Of a stretch of DNA of 35,368 nucleotides, positions 4,500-27,619 are shown one piece after another. The stretch's first letter is position 1. Each line of letters starts with the position of its first letter. Both the position numbers and the translations under genes were made by a program. Under the pieces are notes generated by a model, which was given only the letters and a program-made list of their open reading frames with translations, had not been told where the DNA came from and made no database searches. Source of the stretch: a virus; IMG/VR virus record IMGVR_UViG_3300042558_001647, positions 1 through 35,368 of that record; one strand, 5' to 3'.

Positions 4500-5654
4500 A
4501 TGAAAAAACTTAAAATAACCAAAGAACAATACGATAGATTAGTCCTTACCGAACAAAAGGTTAGAACTAACGTTTATGTTGACGGTATTTTGACTGAAGA
4601 TATAAATAATAAAGCAGAACTTTTAGATGAAGGTTTAAAAGACATCCTTTTGGGTGTTTCCATGCTTATAGGTTTGAATTTAAGTGGTCAGAACAAAGAC
4701 ATTGGTGACAAAGCTTTGAATAATGCTAATATATTGAAACAAATAGAGGCAACGTTAGAAGATAAGAGTAAAACGCAAGAATTGATTGATGCAATGAAAG
4801 CTAAAGGTATAAAAGACCCTTCGGCTATGTTGGCTACAAACGCTGAAAAAATAATCGATAGATACAACGAAATATCTGACGATAAAGATATAAACATCAA
4901 ACTAGGTGTTGTTGCTGTAAATAATTTAAAATCGTTAGAGAGTAAATTAAAACAAGGTTACGCTGTTAAGTCAGCTGAAATGTCAACAGATACAATAAAA
5001 GGTGTTCAAGAAACTAAAATAGTTGTTGTTAAAGATACGCTAAGTATTGATTTGGATAACATGCAGAATATGTTTGTAACTGGTGGGTACCAACTATCAG
5101 AAGATGGTAAAAAAGCTATAAAAGACGCTATTGAATCAGTTACTTCACAAGGTGGTAAAATCATAAGTGTTGAGATTGAGTCTTCTACTGATGCTGAAAA
5201 AATGGCTAGTCTAAGCACAAAAGAAGACCCTACTGGAAATATAGAATTAGCTAATTTGAGAAGTCAAAGTGTTAATGATATTGTTGGTGGTTTGGTTTCT
5301 GGTGCTGAAGTTACAACTAGAGAGATTCCTAACAATGGTTCTGAAGTTGTTAGTCCAGAAATGTTTAAAAAAGCAGCTAATAATAAAGAGGAATTGTTAA
5401 AACTTAGAAACAAAACATCTGAATTCCGTTATGTTAAATTAAACATTGTGGCTGAGTTTACAACTGAATCAACAGACCCAGAACCTAAACCAGATGTGAT
5501 AATCAAAAAATATAGATTTGAAGTAGTGAAGATGTACGAGACATCTTCAACTGGTAAAAAACTTGGTGGTGATGGGCTTAAATTTAAACATAAAAAGTTT
5601 AAATGTAAAAAACAAAAAGACAAGTCTATTGTTGCTAAATGTTTTACTTTTTAA
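4500..5654 (+). CDS. OmpA-like-domain protein with CTS-like N-terminus
   Basis: 384 residues from the ATG at 4500; an in-frame ATG at 4485 would add five residues but falls inside the upstream late-type motif. The N-terminus MKKLKITKEQYDRLVLTE resembles the gene at 9962 and ends in L-T-E, a possible prohead-protease site. About residues 180-320 look like an OmpA-type peptidoglycan-binding domain: 'GGYQLSEDGKKAI' helix, 'ISVEIESSTDAEK' strand-turn with Asp, 'GNIELANLRSQSV' helix with the conserved Arg, and a last strand 'RYVKLNIVAEF'. The last ~50 residues are strongly basic, with three Cys. A virion or entry role is inferred from position next to the sheath. It converges on the CAP gene and the two stop codons share TTAA at 5651-5654. 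Confidence 0.65.
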   Translation: MKKLKITKEQYDRLVLTEQKVRTNVYVDGILTEDINNKAELLDEGLKDILLGVSMLIGLNLSGQNKDIGDKALNNANILKQIEATLEDKSKTQELIDAMKAKGIKDPSAMLATNAEKIIDRYNEISDDKDINIKLGVVAVNNLKSLESKLKQGYAVKSAEMSTDTIKGVQETKIVVVKDTLSIDLDNMQNMFVTGGYQLSEDGKKAIKDAIESVTSQGGKIISVEIESSTDAEKMASLSTKEDPTGNIELANLRSQSVNDIVGGLVSGAEVTTREIPNNGSEVVSPEMFKKAANNKEELLKLRNKTSEFRYVKLNIVAEFTTESTDPEPKPDVIIKKYRFEVVKMYETSSTGKKLGGDGLKFKHKKFKCKKQKDKSIVAKCFTF

Positions 5655-6196
5655 TCAAAGTTAATCACACAATAAAAATCAACTAAATAATGACTTTTGA
5701 TGTTTTTAAAGGTCACTGTTTTCCCATTTATTACAACCTCGTTTGATTTAAACGTTATGTTTTTAATTACCGTTTCAAAACCAACATTTTTGTAATCACC
5801 TAACAATATTTTTTTATGTTTTGGTGATTTATCAAACATGTACAAGCAGTATAACTTAACGTATTTAACGACTTCTGTTTCTGTTTTAGGTTCTTCGTAT
5901 TCCATACCCATAACCGACTCAACAAAAACAAAAAACTCTAATTTGCTATCAACAGTGGATGGTAAATGTTCACCCATGGTTGCAATTTCAGATGTTTTGT
6001 GTGAGTGACTTAAACTATCGTCAGTGATTATTTTATTTGTTTGTTCAACAGATATTTTTGTTAAATCACTAGACAACACCAAAGATGTTTTGCCAAGTTG
6101 TTTTCTGTACTGGTTGATATAACCAAGCATTTCGGTATCTTGTCCAAAAACGTTAGACAAGTTTAAAAAACAAATTATATATAATAATACTTTCAT
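5651..6196 (-). CDS. Secreted CAP/SCP-domain protein
   Basis: 181 residues. A signal peptide is clear: MKVLL, a hydrophobic run and a probable cleavage before Gln near residue 19 (NVFG/Q), a common form in Bacteroidota. The mature part follows the CAP (cysteine-rich secretory protein/SCP) pattern: 'MLGYINQYRKQLG' first helix, 'DLTKISVEQTNKI', 'LSHSHK' His motif, 'MGEHL' in place of the usual GEN, and 'SPKHKKILLGDYKNVGFE'. CAP proteins are often secreted; some bacterial members have peptidase-like or lipid-binding roles, but the activity here is unknown. It is on the opposite strand to the tail genes with its own host-type promoter, like a cargo (moron) gene altering the host envelope. That role is an inference. 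Confidence 0.75.
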   Translation of the reverse strand: MKVLLYIICFLNLSNVFGQDTEMLGYINQYRKQLGKTSLVLSSDLTKISVEQTNKIITDDSLSHSHKTSEIATMGEHLPSTVDSKLEFFVFVESVMGMEYEEPKTETEVVKYVKLYCLYMFDKSPKHKKILLGDYKNVGFETVIKNITFKSNEVVINGKTVTFKNIKSHYLVDFYCVINFD

Positions 6197-6200
6197 GAAA

Positions 6201-6232
6201 CAAAGGTAATAATAAAAAATTACATTACCAAA
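6201..6232 (-). promoter_or_regulatory. Bacteroidota-type promoter of the CAP gene
   Basis: Minus strand: TTTG at 6232-6229, a 20-base spacer, then TACCTTTG at 6208-6201 (consensus TAnnTTTG). Only four bases separate the -7 element from the ATG at 6196, so the transcript would be leaderless or nearly so. The element lies in the stretch between the two minus-strand genes and overlaps the end of the 102-residue gene. Confidence 0.65.
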
Positions 6233-6533
6233 TAATTTCGTATTTTTTTTCTAATAAATCGTAAATTAAATGTATAATTTCTGGTATACCGTAGTTACTT
6301 CTCCATTCTGCATCAGTTTTAGAAACCTCGTCAACTCTATCTGAATACATTTTATAGAAATCTTGAACACAAATTTTTGGTTTGATATCGTTTTTTGTTA
6401 GAATACCAAAAACAATACCACATACTTCTTCACCAGTAAAATATGTTTTCCATTCACATTCATCAGCTATTTCGTTAACTATTTTGGTGTATTGCCTTAA
6501 TAATTTTTTTTCTGTTATTTTAATTTTACCCAT
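6225..6533 (-). CDS. Unknown 102-residue protein of minus-strand cargo pair
   Basis: I do not recognise a family. The protein starts MGKIKITEKKLLRQY, has no signal peptide or membrane segment, contains three Cys (two near residues 26-38, one near 55), and is predicted mainly helical with Trp near residues 28, 77 and at the C-terminus. It lies 28 bases upstream of the CAP gene in the same direction and has its own host-type promoter. Its N-terminus 'KITEKKLL' faintly resembles the 'KITKEQY' start of the OmpA-like protein, but the following L-x-E site is not clear. Coding is supported by an uninterrupted frame, a promoter and a compact intergenic layout. Confidence 0.65.
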   Translation of the reverse strand: MGKIKITEKKLLRQYTKIVNEIADECEWKTYFTGEEVCGIVFGILTKNDIKPKICVQDFYKMYSDRVDEVSKTDAEWRSNYGIPEIIHLIYDLLEKKYEIIW

Positions 6534-6552
6534 AGTTAAAACTTCTTTTATG

Positions 6553-6584
6553 CAAAAGTACTAAAATTTTTTGTGAAAAACAAA
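6553..6584 (-). promoter_or_regulatory. Bacteroidota-type promoter of the 102-residue gene
   Basis: Minus strand: TTTG at 6584-6581, exactly 20 bases, then TACTTTTG at 6560-6553, preceded by TTAG as in the gp32 promoters. The ATG is at 6533, giving a short leader of about 13 bases. Confidence 0.7.
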
Positions 6585-6602
6585 TTTATTCTCGTGAACC
6601 AT

Positions 6603-6666
6603 ATATTTATAGGAAAGCGGAAAATAATATTTTTTTTTGAAAAAAATAAATTTTCCAATATTTATA
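6603..6666 (+). promoter_or_regulatory. Two late-type motifs before the tail tube gene
   Basis: ATATTTATA at 6603-6611 and AATATTTATA at 6657-6666; the second is 35 bases before the tube ATG and is followed by an A-rich leader. Doubling of the motif could suit the high output needed for a tube protein. Confidence 0.5.
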
Positions 6667-6701
6667 ATTAAATAAGAACAAATTTTTAAAACAAATACGA
6701 C

Positions 6702-7190
6702 ATGGCTGATTTATTAATGAAAATGCCCCTACCTTACGAGCCTAAGAAAAAGAATCGTTGGTTAATCACTTTCCCAGCAGATTTAGGTATCCAACAATGG
6801 TGGTTATCTTCTGCTTCTAGACCTTCAATCACACAAAACGAAGTTGAGATTCCTTTCCTTAACACATCTACTTGGGTAATAGGTAGATTTACTTGGGAAG
6901 CAATTGACGTAACTTTCCGTGACCCGATTGGTCCTTCTGCTGCACAAGCAATTATGGAGTGGGTTCGTCTACACTCAGAATCTATTACTGGTCGTCAAGG
7001 TTACGCAGCTGGTTACAAACGTCCAGTTGAACTTGAGATGCTTGACCCAACTGGTGTTGTTATCGAGAAATGGTTACTTGATGGTACCATGTTAACAAAC
7101 GTTGGATTTGGTGACTTATCAATGGATGATGATGGTATCGCTGAAATCACTGCTACATTACGTTTTGACAGAGCAATCTTATTATTCTAA
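6702..7190 (+). CDS. Tail tube protein (T4 gp19-like)
   Basis: 162 residues, almost the length of T4 gp19 (163). It starts MADLLMKMPLPYEPKKKNRW, followed by 'FPADLGIQQWWLSSASRP' and a beta-rich body with 'TWEAIDVTFRDPIGPSAAQAIMEWVRLH', 'GRQGYAAGYKRPVELEMLDP' and the closing 'GDLSMDDDGIAEITATLRFDRA'. These match the tube family pattern, in which hexameric rings stack to form the DNA channel inside the sheath. Unlike T4, sheath and tube are separated by the OmpA-like gene and the minus-strand pair. Confidence 0.95.
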   Translation: MADLLMKMPLPYEPKKKNRWLITFPADLGIQQWWLSSASRPSITQNEVEIPFLNTSTWVIGRFTWEAIDVTFRDPIGPSAAQAIMEWVRLHSESITGRQGYAAGYKRPVELEMLDPTGVVIEKWLLDGTMLTNVGFGDLSMDDDGIAEITATLRFDRAILLF

Positions 7191-7196
7191 TTAATA

Positions 7197-7310
7197 ATGG
7201 CAAAGGCTAAAAAAGAAGGTAAACCTAAAAAAAATAGGGGTAACTTAGTTAAGCGTTTGAAACTTATTAGTAAGAATCGTGAACTACTAAAGAAATACGA
7301 AAATAATTAA
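7197..7310 (+). CDS. Small very basic protein (37 residues)
   Basis: ATG seven bases after the tube stop, running to a stop just before a terminator. The product MAKAKKEGKPKKNRGN... is 37 residues with Lys/Arg at about 40 percent and a C-terminal helix (LVKRLKLISKNRELLKKYEN). It shares the tube transcript, so it is expected to be made late in large amounts. Family unknown; nucleic-acid binding or a virion glue are possibilities only. Coding is supported by its tight fit between tube stop and terminator. Confidence 0.6.
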   Translation: MAKAKKEGKPKKNRGNLVKRLKLISKNRELLKKYENN

Positions 7311-7315
7311 CATTA

Positions 7316-7339
7316 AAACCTAGGGAACTAGGTTTTTTT
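7316..7339 (+). terminator. Intrinsic terminator after tube operon
   Basis: Stem AAACCTAG/CTAGGTTT with a GGAA tetraloop (7324-7327) followed by a seven-T run ending at 7339. Confidence 0.9.
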
Positions 7340-7348
7340 GTTTTATTT

Positions 7349-7358
7349 AATATTTATA
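7349..7358 (+). promoter_or_regulatory. Late-type motif AATATTTATA
   Basis: Ten bases before the ATG at 7369, immediately after the tube terminator. Confidence 0.45.
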
Positions 7359-7368
7359 AATAAAGATT

Positions 7369-8211
7369 ATGAGAAAATTAGATAAATTTAAAAACCTTAA
7401 AAAAGCTAATTCATTAGTTGAACAAAGATATTTGAAAACAAAAGGGTTGTTATCTGAAAACATTAACGAAGACCCTATTGGTGGTGGATATCTTGGTGAT
7501 ATTGGTTTTGTTCCTGGTAAAAAAGAGTTACAAATGGTTAAGGGTGAAGTTGAGGATTTAAAACCTAATTTCACAATTAATTACAACGCATTAAAAGTTA
7601 TGGATTTAGATTTAGAGATAACTTATGATTTAGAAGATAAAACATACGATGTTAGAAATTCTATAAATGGTAAGTATTACGCCAACAATATAACATACAC
7701 TCAGTGTGTTGATTGTGAATTTAGAACGCCAGAAGAAGTTGTTAAGTTTATCAGACGTAAAGCTGAACGTGGAGATGTTAGATTCATGCCTCAACAAAAT
7801 GAAAACGTTAAGGAAGCTGATTTAAACACATATAGAGCTAGTTTACAAAATACTGGTAACTATCCATGGACGATTTATTTAGGTAACAAAGAAAAAGGTG
7901 AGGTTGACAAAGCACAAAACGCTAAAGATTCTGAAGAATTTAAAAACGAATTCAAACAAGGTTACGCTGGACAAACAATCGAAACAACTAACGGAACATA
8001 TACTTTTTCTGATATAAAATATAAAAATAATTATGGTAATTATGATTTATTATTCACAAAACCTAAAGGTGAAAATGATTGGTCTGATAAAACTCTTTGG
8101 ATAACATATGACCCAACAAATGGTTATTATGTTGATAATTACTATGGTGTCGAATTATCGGATGCTGATTCGGAAGAAAAAGTAATAGAAATGCTAAGCT
8201 ACAATAAATAA
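7369..8211 (+). CDS. Unknown protein with CTS-like N-terminus
   Basis: 280 residues, not recognised. The first ~28 residues are basic and helical (MRKLDKFKNLKKANSLVEQ...) and end GLLSE/N, a good match to the L-x-E cut site of T4-type prohead proteases, shared with three other genes here. The rest is mixed alpha/beta and polar, with two segments of similar layout: about residues 80-130 ('DKTYDVRNSINGKYYANN...FRTPEEVVKFIRRKA') and about 225-280 ('DKTLWITYDPTNGYYVDNYYGVELSDADSEEKVIEML'), suggesting a repeated small domain. It has its own late-type motif and terminator, so it is a single-gene unit. Confidence 0.7.
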   Translation: MRKLDKFKNLKKANSLVEQRYLKTKGLLSENINEDPIGGGYLGDIGFVPGKKELQMVKGEVEDLKPNFTINYNALKVMDLDLEITYDLEDKTYDVRNSINGKYYANNITYTQCVDCEFRTPEEVVKFIRRKAERGDVRFMPQQNENVKEADLNTYRASLQNTGNYPWTIYLGNKEKGEVDKAQNAKDSEEFKNEFKQGYAGQTIETTNGTYTFSDIKYKNNYGNYDLLFTKPKGENDWSDKTLWITYDPTNGYYVDNYYGVELSDADSEEKVIEMLSYNK

Positions 8212-8217
8212 CAAAAA

Positions 8218-8241
8218 GCCACTCGAAAGGGTGGTTTTTTT
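8218..8241 (+). terminator. Intrinsic terminator
   Basis: Stem GCCACTC/GGGTGGT with a GAAA tetraloop (8225-8228) and a seven-T run. Confidence 0.9.
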
Positions 8242-8279
8242 ATTTTATTACATTCTATTTACAAAAAAAATTGTTTTTC

Positions 8280-8288
8280 TATATTTAT
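8280..8288 (+). promoter_or_regulatory. Late-type motif TATATTTAT
   Basis: 37 bases before the ATG of the gp26-like gene. Confidence 0.45.
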
Positions 8289-8325
8289 CTTAAAGTTATA
8301 ATATTAAAAACAAATTAGTTTTAAC

Positions 8326-9630
8326 ATGGAGAAAAAACCTAATGTTTTCCCTAAAAGGGAAACAACAAACACCCCAGTAATGACCGAAGAACAAAGACTT
8401 GCAGCTTTTGAAGCTGAAAAGGCTATGGCTACAAACGAAATATACAATACAGCTGTGGCACCAGAAGATACACCTCAAGGTCATATGAGTGCTGTTGAGA
8501 TGATGAGATATAGAACTCAACAACAATTACAACAAAGAGAAGAAATGGGTATTGTTCAAGACGCTGCTTTAGCTGAAAAAACAACTACTAGAGTTTATCA
8601 AGACCAAAACCAAACGAAAAACGAAGAACAAATGAGGCTTCGTGACGAACAACTAAGAAAAAATATGGAACAAACCCAAAGGTTTCAGCAATTAACTGAA
8701 GAAGCTAATAACAGAGTTAATACATATACAAACACTCAAAACAATATGCAACAAGAAACTTATCAAAACAATCACCAAAACAATCAACCACCAGTAACAC
8801 CACCGTCAAAACCACCAGTAAATAATGGTTATGGTGATAGTTACGGTAAAAATCCTTCTAACATCGACCCATATATTTTGGAGTTGAGTCAGCCTAACTA
8901 TAACGCACCTTTTGACGTTATTCCCTTACCTTCTCAAGGTAAACTATACAAAAACAAAAAGAAGAACATTAGATTGGCTTATATGACAACAGCTGATGAG
9001 AATATCCTTACAAGCCCTAACCTTTTGGAGAGCGGTCAGTTTTTAGAGATTCTTATCAATAGAAAGATTTTGGAACCAGATTTGAGATATAAAGACCTTA
9101 CTGTTGGGGATAGAAACGCTATTATGATATGGCTAAGAGCAACTGGTTATGGTGAAATGTATCCAGTGACTCTATTAGATGGTAGCCAAGAAGCGTTTGA
9201 CACTGAAGTTAATTTGAACGACCTTAAAACAAAATATTTAGGTGCTGAACCAGATGAAGATGGTTTATTTAGCTTTACGTTACCAATTAGTAAGACTGAA
9301 TTAAAATTTAGATTATTAACATGTGGTGATTTAGATGATATTGACAACATGATTGAACAAGATAATGAAAGAAAAATCCCAGTAAACAACTCAACAACTT
9401 ATAGATTTGAGAAGATGATAGTTGAAGTGAACGGAAATAGAGATAGAACTTATTTAAGAGATTTTGCAAGTTTCATGAGGATTGCAGACGCAAAAGCTTT
9501 GGATAATTACATTGAACAGATAGAAAGTGGTATCGACTTAAACATAGAGGTAACGACCCCTGGAGGTGGGTCTATTGCCACCTTTCTTCCGCTTAACGTC
9601 AGCTTTTTTTGGCCTAACTTCAGAGTATAA
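8326..9630 (+). CDS. gp26-like baseplate/tail assembly protein with disordered N-terminus
   Basis: 434 residues. The first ~175 are Gln/Asn/Glu-rich and probably disordered or coiled, ending in a Pro-rich linker (QPPVTPPSKPPVNN). From about residue 190 there is a folded domain beginning 'DVIPLPSQGKLYKNK', with 'LTVGDRNAIMIWLRATGYGEMYPV', a beta segment, and a C-terminus 'FLPLNVSFFWP'. This resembles the T4 gp26 family of baseplate hub proteins/tail chaperones, which also open with LPS-x-GK and end with an FF-x-P motif; here the usual Cys pairs before the end are replaced by 'VTTPGGG'. A T7 run lies seven codons before the stop and joins, by +1 shift, to the next frame. Family assignment is moderate. 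Confidence 0.65.
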   Translation: MEKKPNVFPKRETTNTPVMTEEQRLAAFEAEKAMATNEIYNTAVAPEDTPQGHMSAVEMMRYRTQQQLQQREEMGIVQDAALAEKTTTRVYQDQNQTKNEEQMRLRDEQLRKNMEQTQRFQQLTEEANNRVNTYTNTQNNMQQETYQNNHQNNQPPVTPPSKPPVNNGYGDSYGKNPSNIDPYILELSQPNYNAPFDVIPLPSQGKLYKNKKKNIRLAYMTTADENILTSPNLLESGQFLEILINRKILEPDLRYKDLTVGDRNAIMIWLRATGYGEMYPVTLLDGSQEAFDTEVNLNDLKTKYLGAEPDEDGLFSFTLPISKTELKFRLLTCGDLDDIDNMIEQDNERKIPVNNSTTYRFEKMIVEVNGNRDRTYLRDFASFMRIADAKALDNYIEQIESGIDLNIEVTTPGGGSIATFLPLNVSFFWPNFRV

Positions 9631-9895
9631 GGCTCCGTTATTAGAAGAAATCTATATTTGTACTCAATATTTAAAAGGTGTAACCTATAATGATGTGTTA
9701 TCAATGCCTACTTATGAACGAAGATTCTTTTTAGGTATGTTAACCAAAGATGCTAGAGAAAAACAAGAAGAAGCCGAAAAATTTAAAGAAGAAGCTAAAG
9801 CTAGGTCAAACGGTTCAAAGGGAACTAGAACAACTAGGGTATCTGGTGACGCATTGAAAAACAAAATGAAAACGGGTGAAATACCAACAACATAA
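9566..9895 (+). CDS. Probable frameshift extension of the gp26-like protein (tail chaperone-like)
   Basis: This frame is open from before the overlap to 9895 but has no convincing start: the GTG at 9566 lies inside the GGAGGTGGG stretch, and the first ATG (near 9704) would cut off a conserved-looking part. A +1 shift on the T run at 9604-9610 fuses it in frame to the upstream protein, adding 94 residues (GLTSEYKAPLLEEIYICTQY...) for a ~522-residue product. The added part has 'VTYNDVLSMPTYERRFFLGMLTKDAREKQEEAEKF', a helical pattern seen in second-frame parts of phage tail chaperones, then a basic tail. In T4, genes 26 and 51 are neighbours, so a gp51-like role is an alternative. A homopolymer sequencing error would also explain it. 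Confidence 0.6.
   Translation: MGLLPPFFRLTSAFFGLTSEYKAPLLEEIYICTQYLKGVTYNDVLSMPTYERRFFLGMLTKDAREKQEEAEKFKEEAKARSNGSKGTRTTRVSGDALKNKMKTGEIPTT
9604..9610 (+). promoter_or_regulatory. T7 slippery run, candidate frameshift site
   Basis: AGC TTT TTT TGG in the upstream frame. A +1 move (or a -2 slip, or transcriptional slippage) leads into GGC CTA ACT and the downstream frame; the upstream stop is 18 bases on. Confidence 0.5.
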
Positions 9896-9896
9896 T

Positions 9897-9926
9897 AAAA
9901 TACCCACTTAAATTGTGGGTATTTTT
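9897..9926 (+). terminator. Intrinsic terminator
   Basis: Stem ATACCCAC (9900-9907)/GTGGGTAT (9915-9922) with a TTAAATT loop, A-rich before and five Ts after. The flanking A and T runs make it possibly bidirectional. Confidence 0.9.
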
Positions 9927-9935
9927 GTTTTAAAT

Positions 9936-9944
9936 GATATTTAT
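9936..9944 (+). promoter_or_regulatory. Late-type motif GATATTTAT
   Basis: 17 bases before the ATG at 9962, directly after the terminator. Confidence 0.45.
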
Positions 9945-9961
9945 TAACAAACATCGAAATA

Positions 9962-11398
9962 ATGAATAAAAAATTAATCATATCTGAAACTCAATACGAA
10001 AAGCTAAGATTCTTTATTCTTGAAACGTCATTTGATAAATTGGCAAAAAATGTCATCAAGGATGGTGACACTATCAAGATAAACGCTAACAATGAAGTTT
10101 TAAGTTTTAAAGTTATTGATAGTATAACTGGACAAGTTTATATGGAAAATATAGACAAGGGTACACCATACTTTGGAAAATTAGTATTCATTAGTTTTAC
10201 ATCATTTAATGATAGTAAATTAGATTTAAGAGTTGCTAATGATACACAAAAAACAGAAAAACCAATCAATTCTTCAAATTGGGCTAAATTAACATTAAAA
10301 AACATTGAAAAAATAGATGTCTATAGAGGTGATAATTTGATAGACTCAACATCTGATACTAAAACACAAGAACCAGAAGAGAAAAAAGATGATGCTGAAC
10401 AAAACCTATCTGATGAAGCAATCGACAATATTAACGATTTAATGAGATTGATGTTGGATGGACTTGATGATGGTAAAGGGTTAACACTCGTAATGTCAAA
10501 CAACGAACAAGTAAAATTATGTTGTCAATCAGCATCAAATGGTACTTTTATTTTAGAACCTATTGGTGAATCATCGATAGAATTATTATCAAAATTTGAT
10601 AGTATAACTATCAAAATAATACCAGTTGATGATGAAGATGTTGATACTGATTTGCTAACAGCAAACAAAGAACTTTGGTCAACAACAGATAATGGTCAAA
10701 CTGTTAATATAGTTGTGGAAGGGCGTTCTGGTGATAAAACAGAAACTTTTAAAATAACTGGTGTTTCAGATTTAAAAATTACCCAAACATGTTCTTCTGA
10801 GCTAGATAATGATGATGAAGAGGGTGAAGATTATGACGCTGAAAAAGTTTTAAAAATGGTCTTATCGGACCCAGACTTAAAAGCGGCTTTTTATAAACAA
10901 CCAACATTTTGGCAAGCATTTAAAGCTGAGTTAACTGGAAAAGAAGCGACTGGTAAGGGTATTATACCAACATTAGATTTAATCGCTAGATATATGGATA
11001 AAAAATTAACCGATAAATTAGGTGATGGTTTTAAGAAAAAAGGTAGTGTATCATTTATACCTTTAGAGTCTGTATCGATTCCATATACAAATAAAAAAGG
11101 TGGTAGAGAATACTTTGAACTTAAAAAAGACATTAAGTATGAAGGTGAATTTGCGGTAATAGTTAAAGGGTTTTCTTATGAAGATGTTGAAAACCGTGAT
11201 TACCAAGTTTTAGAAAATTTATCAAAAGGTTTTAGAATAATTGTTAAAGAAAAAACAGAAACACCTAACGTGTTTATCTGTGATGTTGAAAAGCTTTATA
11301 GTGTTAAAAATGAACCTAAACGTGCCAAAGAAGAAGACGTTCAAATACGTTTGATGGATTCTAACGGTTATAAATCAGACAAACAAGAAAAAAAGTAA
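9962..11398 (+). CDS. Unknown protein with CTS-like N-terminus, upstream of tape measure
   Basis: 478 residues, not recognised. The N-terminus MNKKLIISETQYEKLRFFILE aligns with the start of the OmpA-like protein (I-T/S-x-x-Q-Y-x-x-L) and ends F-I-L-E, a possible prohead-protease cut. Residues ~25-120 and ~160-290 are beta-rich, separated by an acidic linker (TQEPEEKKDDAEQ), with a second very acidic stretch near 280-292. Residues ~295-365 are helical ('VLKMVLSDPDLKAAFYKQPTFWQAF'), and the C-terminus is basic. It lies six bases before the tape measure gene, so both are likely on one transcript. A structural role is inferred from context only. Confidence 0.65.
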   Translation: MNKKLIISETQYEKLRFFILETSFDKLAKNVIKDGDTIKINANNEVLSFKVIDSITGQVYMENIDKGTPYFGKLVFISFTSFNDSKLDLRVANDTQKTEKPINSSNWAKLTLKNIEKIDVYRGDNLIDSTSDTKTQEPEEKKDDAEQNLSDEAIDNINDLMRLMLDGLDDGKGLTLVMSNNEQVKLCCQSASNGTFILEPIGESSIELLSKFDSITIKIIPVDDEDVDTDLLTANKELWSTTDNGQTVNIVVEGRSGDKTETFKITGVSDLKITQTCSSELDNDDEEGEDYDAEKVLKMVLSDPDLKAAFYKQPTFWQAFKAELTGKEATGKGIIPTLDLIARYMDKKLTDKLGDGFKKKGSVSFIPLESVSIPYTNKKGGREYFELKKDIKYEGEFAVIVKGFSYEDVENRDYQVLENLSKGFRIIVKEKTETPNVFICDVEKLYSVKNEPKRAKEEDVQIRLMDSNGYKSDKQEKK

Positions 11399-11404
11399 CA
11401 TAGT

Positions 11405-14179: not shown

Positions 14180-14235
14180 TATTAAGTTGATAATCAGATA
14201 ATTAAAACTTTTTTAAAAAAAATTTGTTTAAAAAC

Positions 14236-18944: not shown

Positions 18945-18951
18945 ATAAATT

Positions 18952-19272
18952 ATGGCAAATTACGTAGATAGATATTCAAGCTTTAGAGTTAATTCTGGAA
19001 TGAAACCACTTCCAGGAATTGTAATACCACAAGCTGACAGCGATTTAACTTATGTTTACAAACAAGGTGTCACTAGACTTGACAAATTAAGCAACATGTA
19101 TTATAATAATGCATGGAGTGGATGGATGATTATGGCTGCAAATCCACAATTTGGTGGGTTAGAGTTTAACATACCAGACATGACATTAATTATAATACCG
19201 TACCCTTTTGATAGTGCGGTTAATAGATACACAACAGAAGTGAGAAACAACAAATTATTATATGGCGAGTAA
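18952..19272 (+). CDS. Baseplate wedge protein, gp53/LysM-like
   Basis: 106 residues. After a short N-terminal arm (MANYVDRYSSFRV) the body reads as a LysM-type fold: 'YVYKQGVTRLDKLSNMYYNNAWSGWMIMAANP' followed by 'IPDMTLIIIPYPFDS'. This is the arrangement of T4 gp53 and of small LysM-type tail proteins that bridge wedge and hub; T4 gp53 is 196 residues, so this is a reduced version. It starts seven bases after the giant baseplate protein and overlaps the hub gene by 11 bases, which implies coupled expression in one operon. Confidence 0.7.
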   Translation: MANYVDRYSSFRVNSGMKPLPGIVIPQADSDLTYVYKQGVTRLDKLSNMYYNNAWSGWMIMAANPQFGGLEFNIPDMTLIIIPYPFDSAVNRYTTEVRNNKLLYGE

Positions 19273-22200
19273 TGACGGAAAAATAGGATGTACAACTGGT
19301 AGGGCAAAAATAATCGACCCAAACGATTTTAATGGTTTTAACTCAGACTCAAATGTCCCAGTACAACTTGAAGATTTGAATATTTCGGTTATTTTAACAA
19401 CATATAAAAAACCTAGAACAAATCTAACAACAACATCTGATGGTAGTACCTTTGAAAGCTCTAGAGAGTTTCGAGTTAACTTCATAGAGGGAACAAATTT
19501 GGGTGGTAAAAAGGTTTTAACAACAAAATATACTGATTTAACAACTAGCTTTGAAAAAGGGGCTGTTAACGAAGAAACTTTAGGTATAACAAATATCGAC
19601 ATAGAGTTTAACTCTTCTATGGCACCTATGGTTGCCATAAGTTTTATAGATGTTAGAGGTAGTTCAATTTTTCAGAACGAAGAAAATATTTTAAATGGTT
19701 ACAACAAATACAGCGTATTCTTCCAGCTGCCTTATCCTTTATTTGAATTAGAAATAAAAGGTTATTATGGTAAACCAGTAAAATACTGTCTACACATGTT
19801 GAAGTTCAATTCAAAATTCAACTCACAAACTGGTAATTTTGAGATTACGTGTAATTTTATTGGTTATAGTTACGCTCTGTTATCAGATACGTTATTGGGT
19901 TATTTAAAAGCAATACCATATACAAAAATAGGTGAAGAAAGATATACTGCTTATAATTCAACTAGAAACACACCAATTCTGAACTTAAACGAATTGATGA
20001 AAAAAATTGACGACATTAATAAGAATTTACCAAAAATTGCTGACTCAGCTCCAGAATCTGTTGAATTTAATTCAACTACAACTGCTTTAGATAGGTTAAC
20101 GTATATAAAAGATACCATGGACACATTTGCCGAATCCATGCCAGAATTAAATACAGATAAAGAAAACCACGACTATATTGTTTTTAAAACAATAGATTTA
20201 AAAACAAAAGAAAATGAAATAAAAATATACAAAGATGATGTAACAAAATACATTGAATCTGATGAAGATAGTTTTAATAAATTAAGTGAAACTGATAAAC
20301 TAGATGTTAAAACTTTTACATCATTAGAATCAAACAATGTTGCTTTAGGTGCTAAAGTATATAAGAGAGTTACAAAAAAAATGTTTACATCAAATACAGA
20401 TGCAACGTTGACAACCGCTTTAGGTACACAAAATAATTTAGAAGAAAAAAAACAAAAAATATCTGAGTATCTAAAAAAAAATTATAGCACAGTTGGTGAA
20501 GATGAAAAATTAGATATAATTGATTTTAGTTTACAATATGAAGAACTAAACAAGAAAAAAAACACGACTGAAAAAGCTAATGAAAGTGCAAAGAAGGCTT
20601 TAGCTAAAAAATTTGAAGAGTCCGTTAGAGACACATTAGGTTTCGAACCAACTGTTAGAGAAATAGTTGAAATTTTTACAGCAGCAATAGAAGTTTTTAT
20701 TGAAACGATATATGTAGTGTCAACAACAGCTGAAGGTAATTCAGAAAGAACAGAAGAATTGGCTAAAAAATTTACAGCTACTGGTTCACAAGGTTTAGAA
20801 ACCGACATTTATAATGCAAACATAGAATTAAAAAAATTCTTTCCATGGCCAGATTATAGAGAAAAAGATGATGAGAAAAACACCTATGTTGAAAAATATT
20901 TAGGTGCGTCTGGTGTATTGGAATCACCAGAAAAAGTCGATGAACTTGTTTTTATCGAAGATTTATTAAATGCATTTAGAAAAGCTAAAAAAATAGAAGA
21001 TGCGATAGTTGAAAATCAAGACACTGAAACAACAGCTTGGCTAGCATCAAACCCATTGGACAGTATTGTTTTTAGTGATAAAGAACCATATTCTAGATAT
21101 GGTGAAGGTGGTGAATTCAAAACTAGAGAAGATTTTGTTAGACTTCTACTTATTAGAGGTATGACATTTTTAGGGTACTCAAACGACCCAGCCGTTCTCC
21201 AACCAGAAGAAATAAAAGCAATGGGTGAGGTTGAAGCAGCAGCGATATTAAGAGGTGTTAAAACGGTTGATACGTCTAGTGGTACGTTAAAACAATCATT
21301 AACAAAAATAACTTTAGATTTTATAAAAGATGTTGAAGGTACTATAAATGGTAATTCTAGAAAAGTAATAGAAAAAGCTGGGTCTGATTATAAATATACT
21401 TACATTTATAACGGAAATGAGTTTAAATTAATACCAGTAAACAAAGGGTTCAATAATGAAAATTGGGGTGACCCAAACAAAGAATATTTGCAAGTGTTAA
21501 CTGATTTGATTACAAAAAGAGATGTTGATGAATATTTGTTTTTGACAAATTATAGTGATGATTATACACCAGTTACAGCGGCTTCTAAACCAGTAGAAGA
21601 ATCAAAACAAAGAAAAAATGATGATGGTGGAACATACGTTAAATTTTTTAAAGGAACTGAATTTCCAGCTGCTAATGCAACAGTTACACTACCAGAAGGT
21701 GTTACTTCAGATAACGTTATGATATTAGAAAATTTAAAAAAAGATGCCGTAACGTTTGATGCTGGTTTTAATTCATTTGCTGGTGGTTATGGTGCTCAAG
21801 ATTTTAGTGTTATGGATTGGGGTAATGAAGATTTAACAGATTTAGCACTTATGTATGTTTTTTATAACGACTACCAAGTTGATAATAAATTAACTAATAT
21901 GGGGAGTGGTTTAGCGTATACTAGGAAAAAAAGTGGTGAATTAAAAGGTAAAGACTTAACAACTAGTAAGTTTGATTTAAAAACTAGTGGTAATATAACA
22001 GTACCAAAAATAGGTGACACTCTAAGGTCATTATACTTAAAAAAAGTAGATAATGAAGACGTTAGATTACATGCAGACTGGGGTAAAAATAGAATTTTAT
22101 TTAATAATATCAAAGATGACTCTGTTAGCTACCCTTATGTGGTATTAAAATATGACGAAAATAAACAATTTTCTCTTTTTGGTAGTGAACTGTATTATAA

Positions 22201-25200
22201 CCAATCATTTAGAGGTAGGTTTAAAAATTATAACAGAGCTTTATTGTTTTTACATTCATTACCTTTTAATAAAATTAAAGAAGATACAGTATTTACCGAC
22301 AACCCTTTCGGACCAAACGAGATAACACATTTATTTGATTCGAAAGCTGGGTTTGTACACGCACCTAGGTTGTGGTGTGCATATATTGGTGGTATATTAT
22401 GGAGACAGTCTGGAGATAAGCCAAAGTATGATGATAGTGGAACAAAAATAATAGGTGGCGGTAGCGGTTCTGATGACCCAATAGCATGGAATGTTAATTA
22501 TGCTGATAACAACAAAGTTAATGTTACCGATACACCAGCTGGTTCTTATTCTTATTTATTTGAAGTACCTAATAAAAACACACAATATTTACCATCGAAT
22601 ATAGAATTCATCGGTGATTTTGACAACCTTAATGATTATGTGAAAATTAATAAACAATTCGATATATGGCCAAACTTACCTAGACAAATAAAAAATGCTT
22701 TTAAAAAAACATTTTTTGATTTTGTTAACGGTGAAGATGGAATGACTAGTTTTGATGAAATAAGAAATGAATTAGAAATATATAACGGAACTGGTGACCA
22801 ATTCCATAACTATTTAGGTATCATACGCTCTAAAATAAAAGATAAAGACACCAACAACCCATATATTAGTGCCTCTGACCTTTTAAATTCACAATATCTA
22901 AATATAGATGTTATTAAAAATAATTACGAAAGAATGGTTCCGTTATCTGATAAAGATAAAAAATTCTTTATGTTTTTGGAAATAAAAGATGGTTCAGAAG
23001 CTGCAAGTAAATTAAAAACAGCGTTGACTGAAGAATATGTAATTGCGAATAATAGCTATGCTGCATGGGTTGGCTCTGATGCTGGTCAAGGTCAAATTAC
23101 AAGAAAACCTATAAAAGTTAGTAGCACAAATTTTGATTTATATTTTAAAAGTCTTGTTGATGCGTTGAAAAAAGAAGGTGACGATTTTTCACCAACAAAA
23201 GAAAAAGAAAATTTAGATATTTCAATATTTGGAACAGCAAACAAAGATTTAATTAGGTTAAATTTATATAGAACGTGTAAAAACATATATGACAAATGGT
23301 TAGGCGGTGCCAATGATGTAAACAAAGTAATGTATCAATGTGGTGGTAGAAGTTCAGTAGACGCTAAACTAGCTTCAAAATACGAAAATAAAGCTACTAA
23401 ATTTATTGATAGCTTTAGATTTGTAAGTAGGTCGTTTAGAGATATTGGTGATAAGCTATACATAAACCCTTTACCAATTAATGATTGGTTAATTGGTAAC
23501 CCTAATACTAGTTCCTACGATGCAATAAGCTCGTTGTTAGCGGCTAACAATTTTGAGTTTCAAGCTTTGCCTAATTTTATAAACTTTAACAATGACGAAA
23601 CATTAAAAGCAATCTTTAAACCATACAGTTATTACGATAAGCCGATTGAAGAAGGTATATGTGGACCATCATTTGTCTGTGTATATGTTGGTCAAACATC
23701 TAAACATTTAGATTTTAGAGGTGGTGAATACCCTAACGATGGTTTTGATTTGAGGTGTATAAATGGTAGCCCTAGCACTGAAATACCACCAGATTTTAAT
23801 GAAGCGTCAAACGATTACGAAGATGCGGTTGGTGCTTTTACAGTAAGGTATAGCCAACAAAACCAAAACATTTTTAAAGACATAAATTTGGACCAAAGTG
23901 AATTTAGTGAAACTGATGAATCATTGCAGATTCAAGACGATATATCACAAAAAGGTGCTGAAAACAATAGAAGTTTTGTTGGTCAAAACATATACAACGT
24001 ATATGCTGTTAGAAGTTATTCAGCTGAAATAGAAATGATGGGTAATGCCATGATACAACCAATGATGTATTTTCAATTAGATAACATACCTATGTTTCAT
24101 GGTGCTTATATGGTTACCAGAGTTAAACACTCTATTAAACCAAATAGCATGTCAACAAATTTTAAAGGTGTTAGGATTAGATATCCAGAAACACCTTTGA
24201 TTACAGCTTACGATATTTATATGGATTTAATTTCAACATTAGATACTAGTGGTGCTGGAACTGGAACATTCGGTAGTGGCGGTAGCGGTGGCGGTGTGAA
24301 AGGTACATTTGCACCAATTGTTGTTACATTAATCGAAAATGGTGCCATTAATGGTAAAGTAGAAGCTGGTAATAACAAATTGAAACCATTACCTAAAATT
24401 GAAGGTGTTGATAACGCAAAATTAAACAATAAAGCGGAAAATCTATTAATACAAGAAGCCGTTGACCCATTTGTCAAGATGGTTAAAGATTGGATTGGTT
24501 GGATGAAACAAAACGGGTTTAAAGGTAATAATGGTTATTATGTTGATATTACTAGTATATTTAGAGATTATGAAAAACAAGTTCAAATCAAAAAAGAATA
24601 TGGTTCGGCAGCTGCTGCACCTGGTTCATCTAACCATGGTTGGGCAATTGCGTTAGATTTTCAATTTTATAATAAAAAAGGTACTAAAATACCTAACACA
24701 AAAAACCAATCCCAATATTTTAAATTTGATTCAAACCCAGCAATAAAATGGATTTATGATAATTCATGGAAATACGGATGGGTTATGCCGTCTAGTTTGA
24801 GAGACGGTAGTGGGTTAGAAGAACACTGGCATATTGAGTATCATGGAACAGCTGCAAAATGTATCATAGAAAAGAACCCTACTATCTATGGTTATACTGT
24901 TAATATTGATAAAAACGCTAAAATAGATGCATCTGTTAAAAACCCAAAAACAAAAGATGGTAAAGAAGCTGTTTACAATAGTTGTGATTATAAATTCATT
25001 GAAAAAGCTGGGGATGGAACCGAGGGTGGTGGCGGTGGTAAAGCGGCTTTTGGTTGTAAATCACCTAACTATAGCTTCCCGTTCCAAGACCCATTACCAC
25101 CATCAAATAGTTTAACTATTAAAGAAGCTGTAACGATATTGAAAAAATTACCTAGTGGTACTGGAAAAGCTGTTTTTGCTATTTTGTGGGCAGAAGCGTC

Positions 25201-25558
25201 AAAAAATCCAGATAGAACAGCTTTCAAATCAGCTGGTGGGTATAACTATGCTGGTGTACAAACAGATGGTGGTAAATGGGGTGCTCCAGGAATTATCGGA
25301 CAATATTGTAGAGTTGATAGTGGTGGTAATAAAAGAGCGTTTGCTATTTTTGAAAATAATGAAACATTCTTAAAATTTATGGCTGATAGGGTTGAAAAGA
25401 AAGGGTTTAACGGTAATAATGGTGATGATTGGACAACAACATACATCAATAGTTGGTGGTCACCAGCAGCAAAAGCAAGCTACACAAAAGGAACCGAAAA
25501 ATATAATTCTAAACTATCAATTTATAATACGGCAATGAAAAAATGGAATGCTAATTGA
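19262..25558 (+). CDS. Giant baseplate hub with M15 peptidase and lysozyme-like domains
   Basis: 2098 residues. The N-terminal ~220 residues ('TNIDIEFNSSMAPMVAISFIDVRG', 'YPLFELEIKGYYGKP') and a segment near 1580-1640 ('AEIEMMGNAMIQPMMYFQLDNIPMFHG') look like the split halves of a gp27-type hub. A Gly/Ser linker (~1667-1681) leads to an M15 (VanY/D,D-carboxypeptidase-like) domain with 'SNHGWAIALD' (H1792, D1799) and 'EHWHIEY' (E1854, H1857), the expected zinc ligands and catalytic acid. A second Gly-rich linker (~1917-1930) leads to a C-terminal lysozyme/glucosaminidase-like domain with 'AILWAEASKNP' (E1978) and 'GGYNYAGVQTDGG'. Together they could cut peptide and glycan parts of the wall during entry, as T4 gp5 does with one enzyme. 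Residues ~220-1580 are largely unrecognised. Confidence 0.85.
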   Translation: MASNDGKIGCTTGRAKIIDPNDFNGFNSDSNVPVQLEDLNISVILTTYKKPRTNLTTTSDGSTFESSREFRVNFIEGTNLGGKKVLTTKYTDLTTSFEKGAVNEETLGITNIDIEFNSSMAPMVAISFIDVRGSSIFQNEENILNGYNKYSVFFQLPYPLFELEIKGYYGKPVKYCLHMLKFNSKFNSQTGNFEITCNFIGYSYALLSDTLLGYLKAIPYTKIGEERYTAYNSTRNTPILNLNELMKKIDDINKNLPKIADSAPESVEFNSTTTALDRLTYIKDTMDTFAESMPELNTDKENHDYIVFKTIDLKTKENEIKIYKDDVTKYIESDEDSFNKLSETDKLDVKTFTSLESNNVALGAKVYKRVTKKMFTSNTDATLTTALGTQNNLEEKKQKISEYLKKNYSTVGEDEKLDIIDFSLQYEELNKKKNTTEKANESAKKALAKKFEESVRDTLGFEPTVREIVEIFTAAIEVFIETIYVVSTTAEGNSERTEELAKKFTATGSQGLETDIYNANIELKKFFPWPDYREKDDEKNTYVEKYLGASGVLESPEKVDELVFIEDLLNAFRKAKKIEDAIVENQDTETTAWLASNPLDSIVFSDKEPYSRYGEGGEFKTREDFVRLLLIRGMTFLGYSNDPAVLQPEEIKAMGEVEAAAILRGVKTVDTSSGTLKQSLTKITLDFIKDVEGTINGNSRKVIEKAGSDYKYTYIYNGNEFKLIPVNKGFNNENWGDPNKEYLQVLTDLITKRDVDEYLFLTNYSDDYTPVTAASKPVEESKQRKNDDGGTYVKFFKGTEFPAANATVTLPEGVTSDNVMILENLKKDAVTFDAGFNSFAGGYGAQDFSVMDWGNEDLTDLALMYVFYNDYQVDNKLTNMGSGLAYTRKKSGELKGKDLTTSKFDLKTSGNITVPKIGDTLRSLYLKKVDNEDVRLHADWGKNRILFNNIKDDSVSYPYVVLKYDENKQFSLFGSELYYNQSFRGRFKNYNRALLFLHSLPFNKIKEDTVFTDNPFGPNEITHLFDSKAGFVHAPRLWCAYIGGILWRQSGDKPKYDDSGTKIIGGGSGSDDPIAWNVNYADNNKVNVTDTPAGSYSYLFEVPNKNTQYLPSNIEFIGDFDNLNDYVKINKQFDIWPNLPRQIKNAFKKTFFDFVNGEDGMTSFDEIRNELEIYNGTGDQFHNYLGIIRSKIKDKDTNNPYISASDLLNSQYLNIDVIKNNYERMVPLSDKDKKFFMFLEIKDGSEAASKLKTALTEEYVIANNSYAAWVGSDAGQGQITRKPIKVSSTNFDLYFKSLVDALKKEGDDFSPTKEKENLDISIFGTANKDLIRLNLYRTCKNIYDKWLGGANDVNKVMYQCGGRSSVDAKLASKYENKATKFIDSFRFVSRSFRDIGDKLYINPLPINDWLIGNPNTSSYDAISSLLAANNFEFQALPNFINFNNDETLKAIFKPYSYYDKPIEEGICGPSFVCVYVGQTSKHLDFRGGEYPNDGFDLRCINGSPSTEIPPDFNEASNDYEDAVGAFTVRYSQQNQNIFKDINLDQSEFSETDESLQIQDDISQKGAENNRSFVGQNIYNVYAVRSYSAEIEMMGNAMIQPMMYFQLDNIPMFHGAYMVTRVKHSIKPNSMSTNFKGVRIRYPETPLITAYDIYMDLISTLDTSGAGTGTFGSGGSGGGVKGTFAPIVVTLIENGAINGKVEAGNNKLKPLPKIEGVDNAKLNNKAENLLIQEAVDPFVKMVKDWIGWMKQNGFKGNNGYYVDITSIFRDYEKQVQIKKEYGSAAAAPGSSNHGWAIALDFQFYNKKGTKIPNTKNQSQYFKFDSNPAIKWIYDNSWKYGWVMPSSLRDGSGLEEHWHIEYHGTAAKCIIEKNPTIYGYTVNIDKNAKIDASVKNPKTKDGKEAVYNSCDYKFIEKAGDGTEGGGGGKAAFGCKSPNYSFPFQDPLPPSNSLTIKEAVTILKKLPSGTGKAVFAILWAEASKNPDRTAFKSAGGYNYAGVQTDGGKWGAPGIIGQYCRVDSGGNKRAFAIFENNETFLKFMADRVEKKGFNGNNGDDWTTTYINSWWSPAAKASYTKGTEKYNSKLSIYNTAMKKWNAN

Positions 25559-25585
25559 TATTTTTAAAATTTATTAGTATATTTG
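25555..25585 (+). promoter_or_regulatory. Bacteroidota-type promoter, leaderless arrangement
   Basis: TTG at 25555-25557, 20-base spacer, TATATTTG at 25578-25585 inside the 12-mer TTAGTATATTTG. The ATG follows after four bases, so the mRNA is probably leaderless. Confidence 0.75.
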
Positions 25586-25589
25586 CAAC

Positions 25590-26228
25590 ATGATAGTTGC
25601 GAACATAGTTTCAAAGAATAAAATAAACGTTTCAGAAGATTTTAACGTAGTTCAATCCATGGATGAAATAATCCATGGATTGCCTACATTAATTGTGGGT
25701 TTTGACTACATGGATAAACACTACCCAGATTTTAATATTTTGGATAGAAAGATTTCAGAAAACCTATATTGGACTTTTAAGAAAACAGAACGAAGAGATA
25801 AACATGACGAGGATTTAACTTGGTTTATGGTTAATTCTTACAACGACTTGATAAAAGATATTTCATATGTTTTTATCGACCCATTACAATACAAGACTAA
25901 AGTGCTATGGAAAATTTTAAGAAAAATAAATGAAATTAAAAACATAGTCACTTACGTAAATGGCGATATGGCTTACATATATGGCGAAAAATACATATTT
26001 GGGGTTGATTTAAGATTGCTAGAATATGTTGGGTTTAAAAAAGATAAGGTAAAACGCATGATTAAATCAAAAAGCTCAGTCTTTTTGGACCAAAACGAGA
26101 TACTTATAGAATATAAAAAATACGTTGAAGACTTAGGGTTAAAAGTTAGATACTTACCATATTTATTTTCTATAAAAAATGAACAAAACAATATTACTAG
26201 CAACATTCATCTTCCCAGAGAGAGTTGA
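25590..26228 (+). CDS. Unknown 212-residue protein, first of a two-gene unit
   Basis: Not recognised. It starts MIVANIVSKNKINVSEDF and has an alternating alpha/beta look: 'LPTLIVGFDYMDKHYP', 'NLYWTFKKTERRDKHDEDLTWF', 'DISYVFIDPLQYKTKVLWKILRKI', then a basic C-terminal half. Conserved-looking Trp, Asp and Tyr residues hint at an enzyme or binding protein, but no known active-site motif is seen. It has a strong early-type promoter, so it is probably expressed early despite lying behind the baseplate operon. A perfect palindrome lies within its codons 22-31. It overlaps the next gene by 50 bases. Confidence 0.7.
   Translation: MIVANIVSKNKINVSEDFNVVQSMDEIIHGLPTLIVGFDYMDKHYPDFNILDRKISENLYWTFKKTERRDKHDEDLTWFMVNSYNDLIKDISYVFIDPLQYKTKVLWKILRKINEIKNIVTYVNGDMAYIYGEKYIFGVDLRLLEYVGFKKDKVKRMIKSKSSVFLDQNEILIEYKKYVEDLGLKVRYLPYLFSIKNEQNNITSNIHLPRES
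25653..25682. repeat. Perfect 12-bp palindrome with 6-base loop inside a coding region
   Basis: CAATCCATGGAT, loop GAAATA, ATCCATGGATTG. The stem extends by GTAG/CTAC (25647-25650, 25684-25687) past a small bulge. It starts 63 bases downstream of the ATG at 25590 and contains in-frame and out-of-frame ATGs. Confidence 0.85.
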
Positions 26229-26580
26229 TTGGTTTCTAAGTTATTTAGAAGCCAAATTTGCTATTACCAAAAATAAAGTGTTTTGTTATAAGAATCTTGA
26301 TGACGAATCTAAAGTCATTATGACATTTAAAATAAATGTCCAAAAAGACAAGCCATTAAATCTTAAAAATTTATTCCCAAGTGCTGTACCAGTACATAAA
26401 AAAGGTGATGCTATTTATACAATAAATGCGTTAAATAAATTAATCGAAAAAAACTACCCAGAGTCAGTTGGAAACATAGATTACAAAACTGTGAAAATCA
26501 ATTGGGAAGAATATCAAAACAAGATGATTTTAATAAATGGTGAAGAACTTACCATTTTTAATATAACTAGGGTTTTTTAG
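26179..26580 (+). CDS. Unknown 133-residue protein
   Basis: Not recognised. MNKTILLATFIFPERVDWFL opens with a hydrophobic strand rather than a convincing signal peptide. It is followed by 'YLEAKFAITKNKVFCY', a Lys-rich middle and a C-terminal 'WEEYQNKMILINGEELTIFNITRVF'. The start lies 50 bases inside the upstream gene, suggesting translational coupling; the frame is well supported downstream of the overlap. Confidence 0.6.
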   Translation: MNKTILLATFIFPERVDWFLSYLEAKFAITKNKVFCYKNLDDESKVIMTFKINVQKDKPLNLKNLFPSAVPVHKKGDAIYTINALNKLIEKNYPESVGNIDYKTVKINWEEYQNKMILINGEELTIFNITRVF

Positions 26581-26589
26581 TGTTTTACT

Positions 26590-26599
26590 GATATTTATA
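26590..26599 (+). promoter_or_regulatory. Late-type motif GATATTTATA
   Basis: 32 bases before the ATG at 26632, with an A-rich leader. Confidence 0.45.
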
Positions 26600-26631
26600 T
26601 AAAAACATAATACAAATTTAAAAATATAGTT

Positions 26632-26832
26632 ATGGAAAACAACACTTCAAATAAAAATGTTCCTAACCAAAAAGATTTAGACAAAGCTTTAGAAGGATAT
26701 TTGAACACAGAAAACCAAGACCCGAACTTAGATTGTAGTTCTGGTGTTTGTGTTATCAAAGGTGATAAAAGCCTTATTGAAAGAATAAACAAAAAAATAA
26801 TCACCGAAGACGGTAGACAATTATTATTCTAA
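26632..26832 (+). CDS. Unknown 66-residue protein
   Basis: Polar N-terminal half (MENNTSNKNVPNQKDLDKAL), a 'DCSSGVCVIKGDKSLIERINKK' core with two Cys five residues apart, and a conserved-looking end 'ITEDGRQLLF'. Family and function are unknown. It lies four bases before the acidic protein gene under the same late-type motif, so the two are probably made together late in infection. Confidence 0.65.
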   Translation: MENNTSNKNVPNQKDLDKALEGYLNTENQDPNLDCSSGVCVIKGDKSLIERINKKIITEDGRQLLF

Positions 26833-26836
26833 TTAA

Positions 26837-27619
26837 ATGAAAAAAAATAAACTTAATCCAGAATTATTGAAAGAAGAACTTAAAAAGTTTAGGTTGCTTT
26901 CTGAATATGATTTTTATGGTAAAACAACTGAAGATTCAGAATATGAAAAACCATTAGTTTTAGGTGCTGAACTAGAAGAAGCTGACGAAGAAGAAGCTAC
27001 TGATGCAATCGCTGCCGACTTAGGTTTAGATGCTGAACAACCAGCTAACGATGCTGAACAACCAGCTAACGATGCTGAACAACCAGCAACTGACGAAACT
27101 GGTGATGACGAACAAACTGGTGAAATACCTAACGAAGAACCAGCGACTGGTGAAGTTCCAGCGGAAGAACCAGTAGAGGAACCAGTAGAAGATACATCAG
27201 ATGATGTTGAAATCGATGTTACATCGTTGGTGAAGGGTTCAGAAGATGCTAAAGCTGCTGCTGACAAAGCTACTGCAAACACAGAAGTTCTTTTACAGAA
27301 ACTTTCAGACTTAGAATCACGTGTTGCTAGCATGGACAACATAACAAACAAAATCGAAGGTTTAGAACAAGAAATAATCAAAAGAAACCCAACACCAGTT
27401 GAGAAACTAGAAATGCGTTCATTAAGTTCTTTCCCATACAGTCAAAAATTAACAGATTATTGGGCCGACAAAGAAGGTGCTTATGACGTTATGGGTAATA
27501 AAGACAAAAAAGAAGAATACGTTTTAACACAAGATGATGTTGATTATGGTTATAGTGAACCAGAAGTAAAAAGAAGTTTTGGTGTCAACCCAGACGATTA
27601 CGAAGAAGAAGAAATTTAA
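26837..27619 (+). CDS. Acidic protein with CTS-like N-terminus and DAEQPAN repeats
   Basis: 260 residues. The first ~23 residues are basic/helical (MKKNKLNPELLKEELKKFR) and end LLSE/Y, matching the L-x-E site of T4-type prohead proteases. Residues ~45-130 are a strongly acidic, Ala/Pro/Glu-rich disordered region with three DAEQPA(N/T) repeats. About 135-185 is a coiled coil ('NTEVLLQKLSDLESRVASM'), and the C-terminus (MRSLSSFPYSQKLTDYW...) is a short folded motif followed by an acidic end. The layout resembles scaffold- or core-type proteins, but no head gene lies in the window to confirm this. A terminator follows. Confidence 0.7.
   Translation: MKKNKLNPELLKEELKKFRLLSEYDFYGKTTEDSEYEKPLVLGAELEEADEEEATDAIAADLGLDAEQPANDAEQPANDAEQPATDETGDDEQTGEIPNEEPATGEVPAEEPVEEPVEDTSDDVEIDVTSLVKGSEDAKAAADKATANTEVLLQKLSDLESRVASMDNITNKIEGLEQEIIKRNPTPVEKLEMRSLSSFPYSQKLTDYWADKEGAYDVMGNKDKKEEYVLTQDDVDYGYSEPEVKRSFGVNPDDYEEEEI
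27029..27091 (+). repeat. Three tandem 21-bp repeats in the acidic gene
   Basis: Units start at 27029, 27050 and 27071 and encode DAEQPAN, DAEQPAN, DAEQPAT. The first two copies are identical at DNA level, implying recent duplication and likely length variation among relatives. Confidence 0.9.

Follow-up and report, generated by a model that had tools for sequence, protein, structure and literature searches.

Do proteins encoded among the tail genes of an uncultured phage carry an address for the head? The question is raised by a 35,368-bp linear viral record (IMG/VR IMGVR_UViG_3300042558_001647), the whole of which is called the window here, and in particular by its genes at positions 4500, 7369, 9962 and 26837. 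According to a preliminary description, the products of these genes are unrelated proteins sharing one N-terminal signal that ends in L-x-E, similar to a capsid-targeting sequence. In phage T4, protease gp21 cleaves after L/I-X-E, and a stretch of ten IPIII residues is enough for packaging (PMC9026906). IPI, an anti-restriction protein of T4, is injected, and the T-even internal proteins have been described as diverse defence proteins having only the targeting sequence in common (PMC3012670). Lack of conservation in their mature sequences has left internal head proteins among the least known components of the phage virion. Here we consider it probable, from sequence comparisons, that the products of genes 4500, 7369 and 9962 are cargo loaded into the head with interchangeable leaders trimmed by a protease, and that the mature cargo is at least partly injected.

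Two leader families on unrelated proteins

All four N-terminal peptides are present where they had been placed (sequences in Table 1), but they do not make up a single signal. Genes 4500 and 9962 have in common a leader designated F1 (KxITxxQYxxL, or more fully ITExQYxRL…LxE), gene 7369 carries another, F2 (MRKxDK…NLLxEQRYLxSKG[LI]xxE), and gene 26837 has neither. The terminal motif is also frequent: [LI]-x-E lies within residues 6-38 in 10 of the 29 window genes, the background rate being 0.36-0.41 of genes in relatives, 0.37 in T4 and 0.29-0.35 in internal windows. Since about a third of genes contain the motif anyway, the four cases carry little weight, and L/I-x-E alone (30-40% of genes by background) was rejected as evidence. 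The recurrence of F1 and F2 in front of unrelated cargo, with hydrophobic-x-E where leader and cargo meet, does exceed chance.

Scanning the public viral collection with DNA patterns yielded 67 F1-type and 47 F2-type stretches, mostly at N-termini. In public viral contigs the cargo behind the leaders comprises 23 (F1) and 15 (F2) mutually unrelated clusters. Unbiased clustering of the N-termini of 2892 genes placed F1 on 25 and F2 on 17 bodies, all unrelated, and recovered further, smaller leader families (LTESDL…ILTE, NEEINRMKSLFTEERLYGNL and MKNLIKQLLRE), which mostly end in a similar site. Gene 7369 illustrates the pattern, as often only its first ~33 residues are kept in relatives and the remainder is wholly different; phage G008 has several 7369-type genes with a kept N-terminus and differing remainders. 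In a within-genome control, the known IPII/IPIII leader of T4 (MKTYQEFIAEA) was recovered along with ordinary paralogs. Across different cargo the leader codons display high synonymous divergence (pS 0.54-0.66) vs low non-synonymous divergence (pN 0.18-0.26; pN/pS ~0.35), which indicates that the leader is under selection as a protein sequence.

Among cultured phages, a search for the F1, F2 and LTESDL leaders gave none convincing, and descriptions of the F1 and F2 sequences were not found in the open-licence papers searched. The cultured Flavobacterium phage immuto has a leader family of its own in the N-terminus clustering (MENFDLKKFLVENKLTxNSxLLxE, on genes _3, _179, _194 and the gene at 118632-118931) and encodes a gp21-type protease. 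Also observed in immuto were leaders MENFDLKKFLVENKLT in four genes and MKKQILSEQFRRMQKLAGIITES in two, and the gene adjoining the protease (L139:43578-45238) carries EHFIAEARMQ not far from its beginning, a sequence resembling FIAEAR of T4.

A short leader common to proteins with unrelated mature parts was thus found for F1 and F2 but not for 26837. The latter was rejected as leader-bearing head cargo: its N-terminus is confined to its own family, in which the Glu shifts by one position, Tyr often comes next and two members miss the motif. Of the suggestion that the OmpA-like and the acidic proteins are head cargo, only the part on the putative cargo protein 4500, which is OmpA-like and carries F1, is supported; for the acidic 26837 a head role is not supported. 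The comparison with T4 capsid-targeting sequences similarly appears to hold for 4500, 7369 and 9962 alone.

The proposed cut site and the gp21-type protease

Hydrophobic-x-E occurs within 16 residues after F1 in 20.7 of 23 clusters (cluster-weighted; 10.7 with standard deviation, SD, 1.8 in shuffled sequences and 6.3, SD 1.9, in internal windows), and after F2 in all 15 clusters (shuffled 6.7, SD 1.5). Every one of the 39 F2 proteins has it after KG, a one-residue indel being tolerated, and in 36 of them it is followed by S, N, D, G or T. Among the 36 homologs of 9962 (19-39% identity to it), only three columns are invariant, E21 being one of them, and L, I, M or V always stands two residues ahead of it. 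Some of these homologs have the leader replaced by the T4-like IIAEAR or YIEEAR with the site kept, and in tandemly duplicated leaders the site comes after the last copy. In gene 4500, E18 is nearly invariant (17 homologs). The leaders end in a gp21-type site, L/I-x-E, with V or M sometimes at P3. As neither F1 nor F2 is related in sequence to T4 MKTYQEFIAE, they would act like a capsid-targeting sequence without belonging to the T4 family.

In the AlphaFold2 model of 4500 the leader forms a helix (residues 8-25), beyond which the chain is disordered up to about residue 44. For 9962, the AlphaFold model is of low confidence in the first 20 residues (predicted local distance difference test score, pLDDT, 53-56) and confident from about residue 21 (85-97).

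Relatives having a head module encode portal, protease, scaffold-like and capsid proteins in T4 order. Their capsid propeptide ends in the same type of site as the leaders, L/I-x-E before the mature arm (LLTE before T, G, A, S or N; LLSE before S; LLKE or LINE before A), aligning with FLTE before A in T4 gp23. In the product of the gene that follows the portal, ILVE or IIAE stands before G, or ILAE before N. A gp21-type protease (PF03420) is encoded by every one of the 13 leader-bearing contigs that have a T4-type portal (nine identified by family search; G002, G003, G009 and G010 by similarity), a co-occurrence that has no matched protease-free control. Of the contigs tested, those without the protease have no portal either, no exception being found in either direction, and protease absence from these shorter contigs is for that reason uninformative. 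The clade protease (for example G003:7487-8212) scores over the cut-off for PF03420 (peptidase S77, T4 gp21), and H85 and S140 of T4 gp21, which we take to be its catalytic residues, are invariant in five aligned proteases. Genes with LLRE-type leaders directly adjoin the capsid gene; the T4 vertex protein gp24 starts MAKINELLRE, followed by S. A by-eye idea that these LLRE-leader genes encode ADP-ribosyltransferases found no database support and was rejected.

Pieces of the capsid protein were also observed elsewhere. Small proteins of 139-194 amino acids (aa) join a common ~75-aa N-terminal domain to the 55-aa segment in which the major capsid protein is most conserved (L094:7361-7945, equal to G001:121361-121945; G007:35694; G008:226364; G022:190314; G027:67693), and the N-arm segment of the capsid protein is found in a second type (G008:278273, G022:133357). 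The capsid-segment proteins are possibly capsid decoys or regulators.

Probable head cargo and competing explanations

F1 and F2 are best read as capsid-targeting propeptides of the T4 internal-protein kind, whose sequence families were absent from the open-licence papers searched. The first 18-30 residues would be an interchangeable address bringing unrelated proteins into the prohead core, a gp21-type protease would cut after the Glu of hydrophobic-x-E and free the mature cargo inside the head, and at least some of this cargo would be injected together with the DNA. For targeting, cleavage, packaging and injection alike, we infer from conservation and from the T4 precedent. As in T4 IPI-III and Alt (MKTYQEFIAE, cut before A), a short leader with an L/I-x-E end stands on unrelated mature proteins and a gp21-type protease is encoded, here by the relatives with a head module (PMC9026906, PMC3012670). 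Unlike in T4, the unrelated F1 and F2 sequences have 18-30 residues instead of 10, several leader families occur per genome, and the genes are separate late cassettes in the tail region. A further likeness is seen in giant phage SPN3US, where gp45 and gp225 have 20-24-residue propeptides cut after Glu by a distant gp21 relative that prefers Ser after the cut; the motif is, however, A-x-E, and the available part of that report does not describe leader families shared by unrelated cargo (PMC10052503).

The cargo itself also resembles that of T4, whose internal proteins include anti-restriction proteins. A third F1 gene of the window's phage encodes a 908-aa protein (G001:77660-80386, L092:1660-4386) with an ArdC-N anti-restriction domain (E=3e-9, over the cut-off) and a weak match to M78 zincin peptidases. 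A search of relatives did not turn up the ArdC part, which suggests that the cargo domain has been swapped behind a conserved front. ArdC-N together with a zincin peptidase is a combination known from phage polyvalent proteins, which have been proposed to travel with the DNA; as far as the accessible part of the source goes, ArdC-N is rare in the phage-type ones and a head-targeting leader is not described (PMC5512222). Another F1 protein is an acetyltransferase.

Several observations weigh against head loading. The window and the 137-kb record G001, which contains nearly the same sequence, have no head module; neither encodes the protease and G001 also lacks the portal, and consequently the protease of the window's own virus is deduced from its relatives. 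A few F1 proteins, including some short F1-like ones, have no site, and the 52-kb contig G037 (L360-L362) has many genes with F1-, LLRE- or LTES-type leaders, several of them without L-x-E, suggesting that F1 may have a second role. Virion proteomics was not found for these uncultured phages, nor was a virion proteome of immuto found in the literature search. Finally, genes 4500, 7369 and 9962 lie amid tail genes, and the OmpA-like domain of 4500 would also fit a tail or periplasmic role.

The last two points would also suit leaders that serve as docking peptides in the assembly of tail or baseplate, the proteins being tail parts and the Glu a conserved, uncut helix end. The three genes are found between those for sheath, tube, hub and tape measure, and in the relatives examined leader genes occupy the same interval. 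We nevertheless regard docking as unlikely, as the F1 gene with the ArdC domain is ~67 kb away and the LLRE-type genes are next to the capsid gene. Moreover, leader swaps and one-residue indels are tolerated while hydrophobic-x-E is kept, which is more in keeping with cleavage by a protease than with a surface for binding. Slightly less probable still is that the leaders direct the proteins elsewhere within the infected cell, or have an early binding partner, L-x-E being incidental; the site-less short F1-like proteins, many of them on G037, would be explained in this way, but not the strong retention of the site across unrelated cargo, nor the co-occurrence with the protease, even allowing for its missing control set. 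That shuffling of promoter and 5' coding DNA spread the N-termini without any targeting function is very improbable, for although the genes resemble stand-alone cassettes, all preceded by the same terminator and box, amino acids are kept at strongly diverged synonymous sites and the upstream DNA is only ~50% identical (ungapped).

Beyond the window, protease-trimmed head targeting invites a wider proposal, towards which we lean less than halfway. In large uncultured phages of the T4-like kind, many of which probably infect Bacteroidota, co-existing leaders (F1, F2, LLRE, LTESDL and FTEERLYGNL) may serve as a plug-in address code, by which many effectors and anti-defence proteins per genome would be loaded into the head from late cassettes that swap freely between phages. 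If head targeting is true, proteins that are injected could be recognized in metagenomes from their N-terminus alone, among them new factors for anti-defence and host takeover. In that case the leaders would also offer a portable tag by which proteins could be packaged into the heads of phages beyond the T4 group.

Gene organization of the window

Judging from its genes (Table 1), the window is a piece of a T4-like contractile-tailed phage genome. G001 holds nearly identical sequence (704 of 707 sampled 50-mers match), and cellular genomes searched for the window's phage gave no match. By the sheath protein, the closest cultured relatives include Flavobacterium phages (immuto), at ~36% over part of the protein only.

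Table 1. Features of the window discussed in the text.
Feature	Position	Strand	Remarks
Sheath	gene 1576		named by inspection and homology
Terminator hairpin upstream of 4500	4446..4461	+	palindromic; scan listed minus, T run follows on plus too
Late-type box GATATTTAT before gene 4500	4478..4486	+	
Putative head-cargo gene 4500	4500..5654	+	helical domain and OmpA-like peptidoglycan-binding domain
F1 leader of gene 4500 (MKKLKITKEQYDRLVLTE)	4500..4553	+	proposed cut after E18
Second ILTE site in gene 4500	ends 4598	+	
Tube	gene 6702		named by inspection and homology
Terminator hairpin upstream of 7369	7315..7336	+	
Late-type box AATATTTAT before gene 7369	7349..7357	+	
Putative head-cargo gene 7369, F2 leader	7369..8211	+	cargo part differs strongly between relatives
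F2 leader of gene 7369 (MRKLDKFKNLKKANSLVEQRYLKTKGLLSE)	7369..7458	+	proposed cut after E30
Terminator hairpin downstream of 7369	8213..8240	+	
Hub protein	gene 8326		PHROG match
Terminator hairpin upstream of 9962	9897..9925	+	
Late-type box GATATTTAT before gene 9962	9936..9944	+	
Putative head-cargo gene 9962, F1 leader	9962..11398	+	multidomain, beta-rich
F1 leader of gene 9962 (MNKKLIISETQYEKLRFFILE)	9962..10024	+	proposed cut after E21
Probable tape measure	gene 11405		named by inspection and homology
gp32, UvsX, RNase H and gp41-like genes	after 11405		named by inspection and homology
Acidic coiled-coil-like protein 26837	26837..27619	+	upstream of gp32
N-terminus of gene 26837 (MKKNKLNPELLKEELKKFRLLSE)	26837..26905	+	family-specific, not a shared leader

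Searches of Pfam, NCBIfam and PHROGs with the four proteins gave nothing solid beyond a weak OmpA match in 4500 (Pfam E=0.005, below the cut-off), for which the best Foldseek match is the OmpA C-terminal domain (probability 1.00). Many homologs of 4500 are short and lack the OmpA part. For 9962, a fold search against the PDB returned beta-rich matches of low template-modelling (TM) score, none convincing.

Genes 4500, 7369 and 9962 are each preceded by a terminator-like hairpin and then a box, [AG]ATATTTAT. The box also stands before the sheath and tube genes and is missing from the window's replication genes. With called starts and F1 classed by pattern, it is present before 11 of 22 F1/F2 genes vs 90 of 934 other genes.

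Some minor observations concern the same region. At 6225-6533 (minus strand) the window has a gene starting with MGKIKITEKKLLRQY, F1-like without a clear leader end, and relatives G002 and G003 have the same in that place. Another minus-strand gene amid the tail genes (5651-6196) encodes a protein with an apparent signal peptide that looks CAP/SCP-like by eye. In G031, tandem near-identical leader genes lie between tube and sheath (L353-L354, G031:29827-33194), which suggests a recent duplication at a cassette hot spot.

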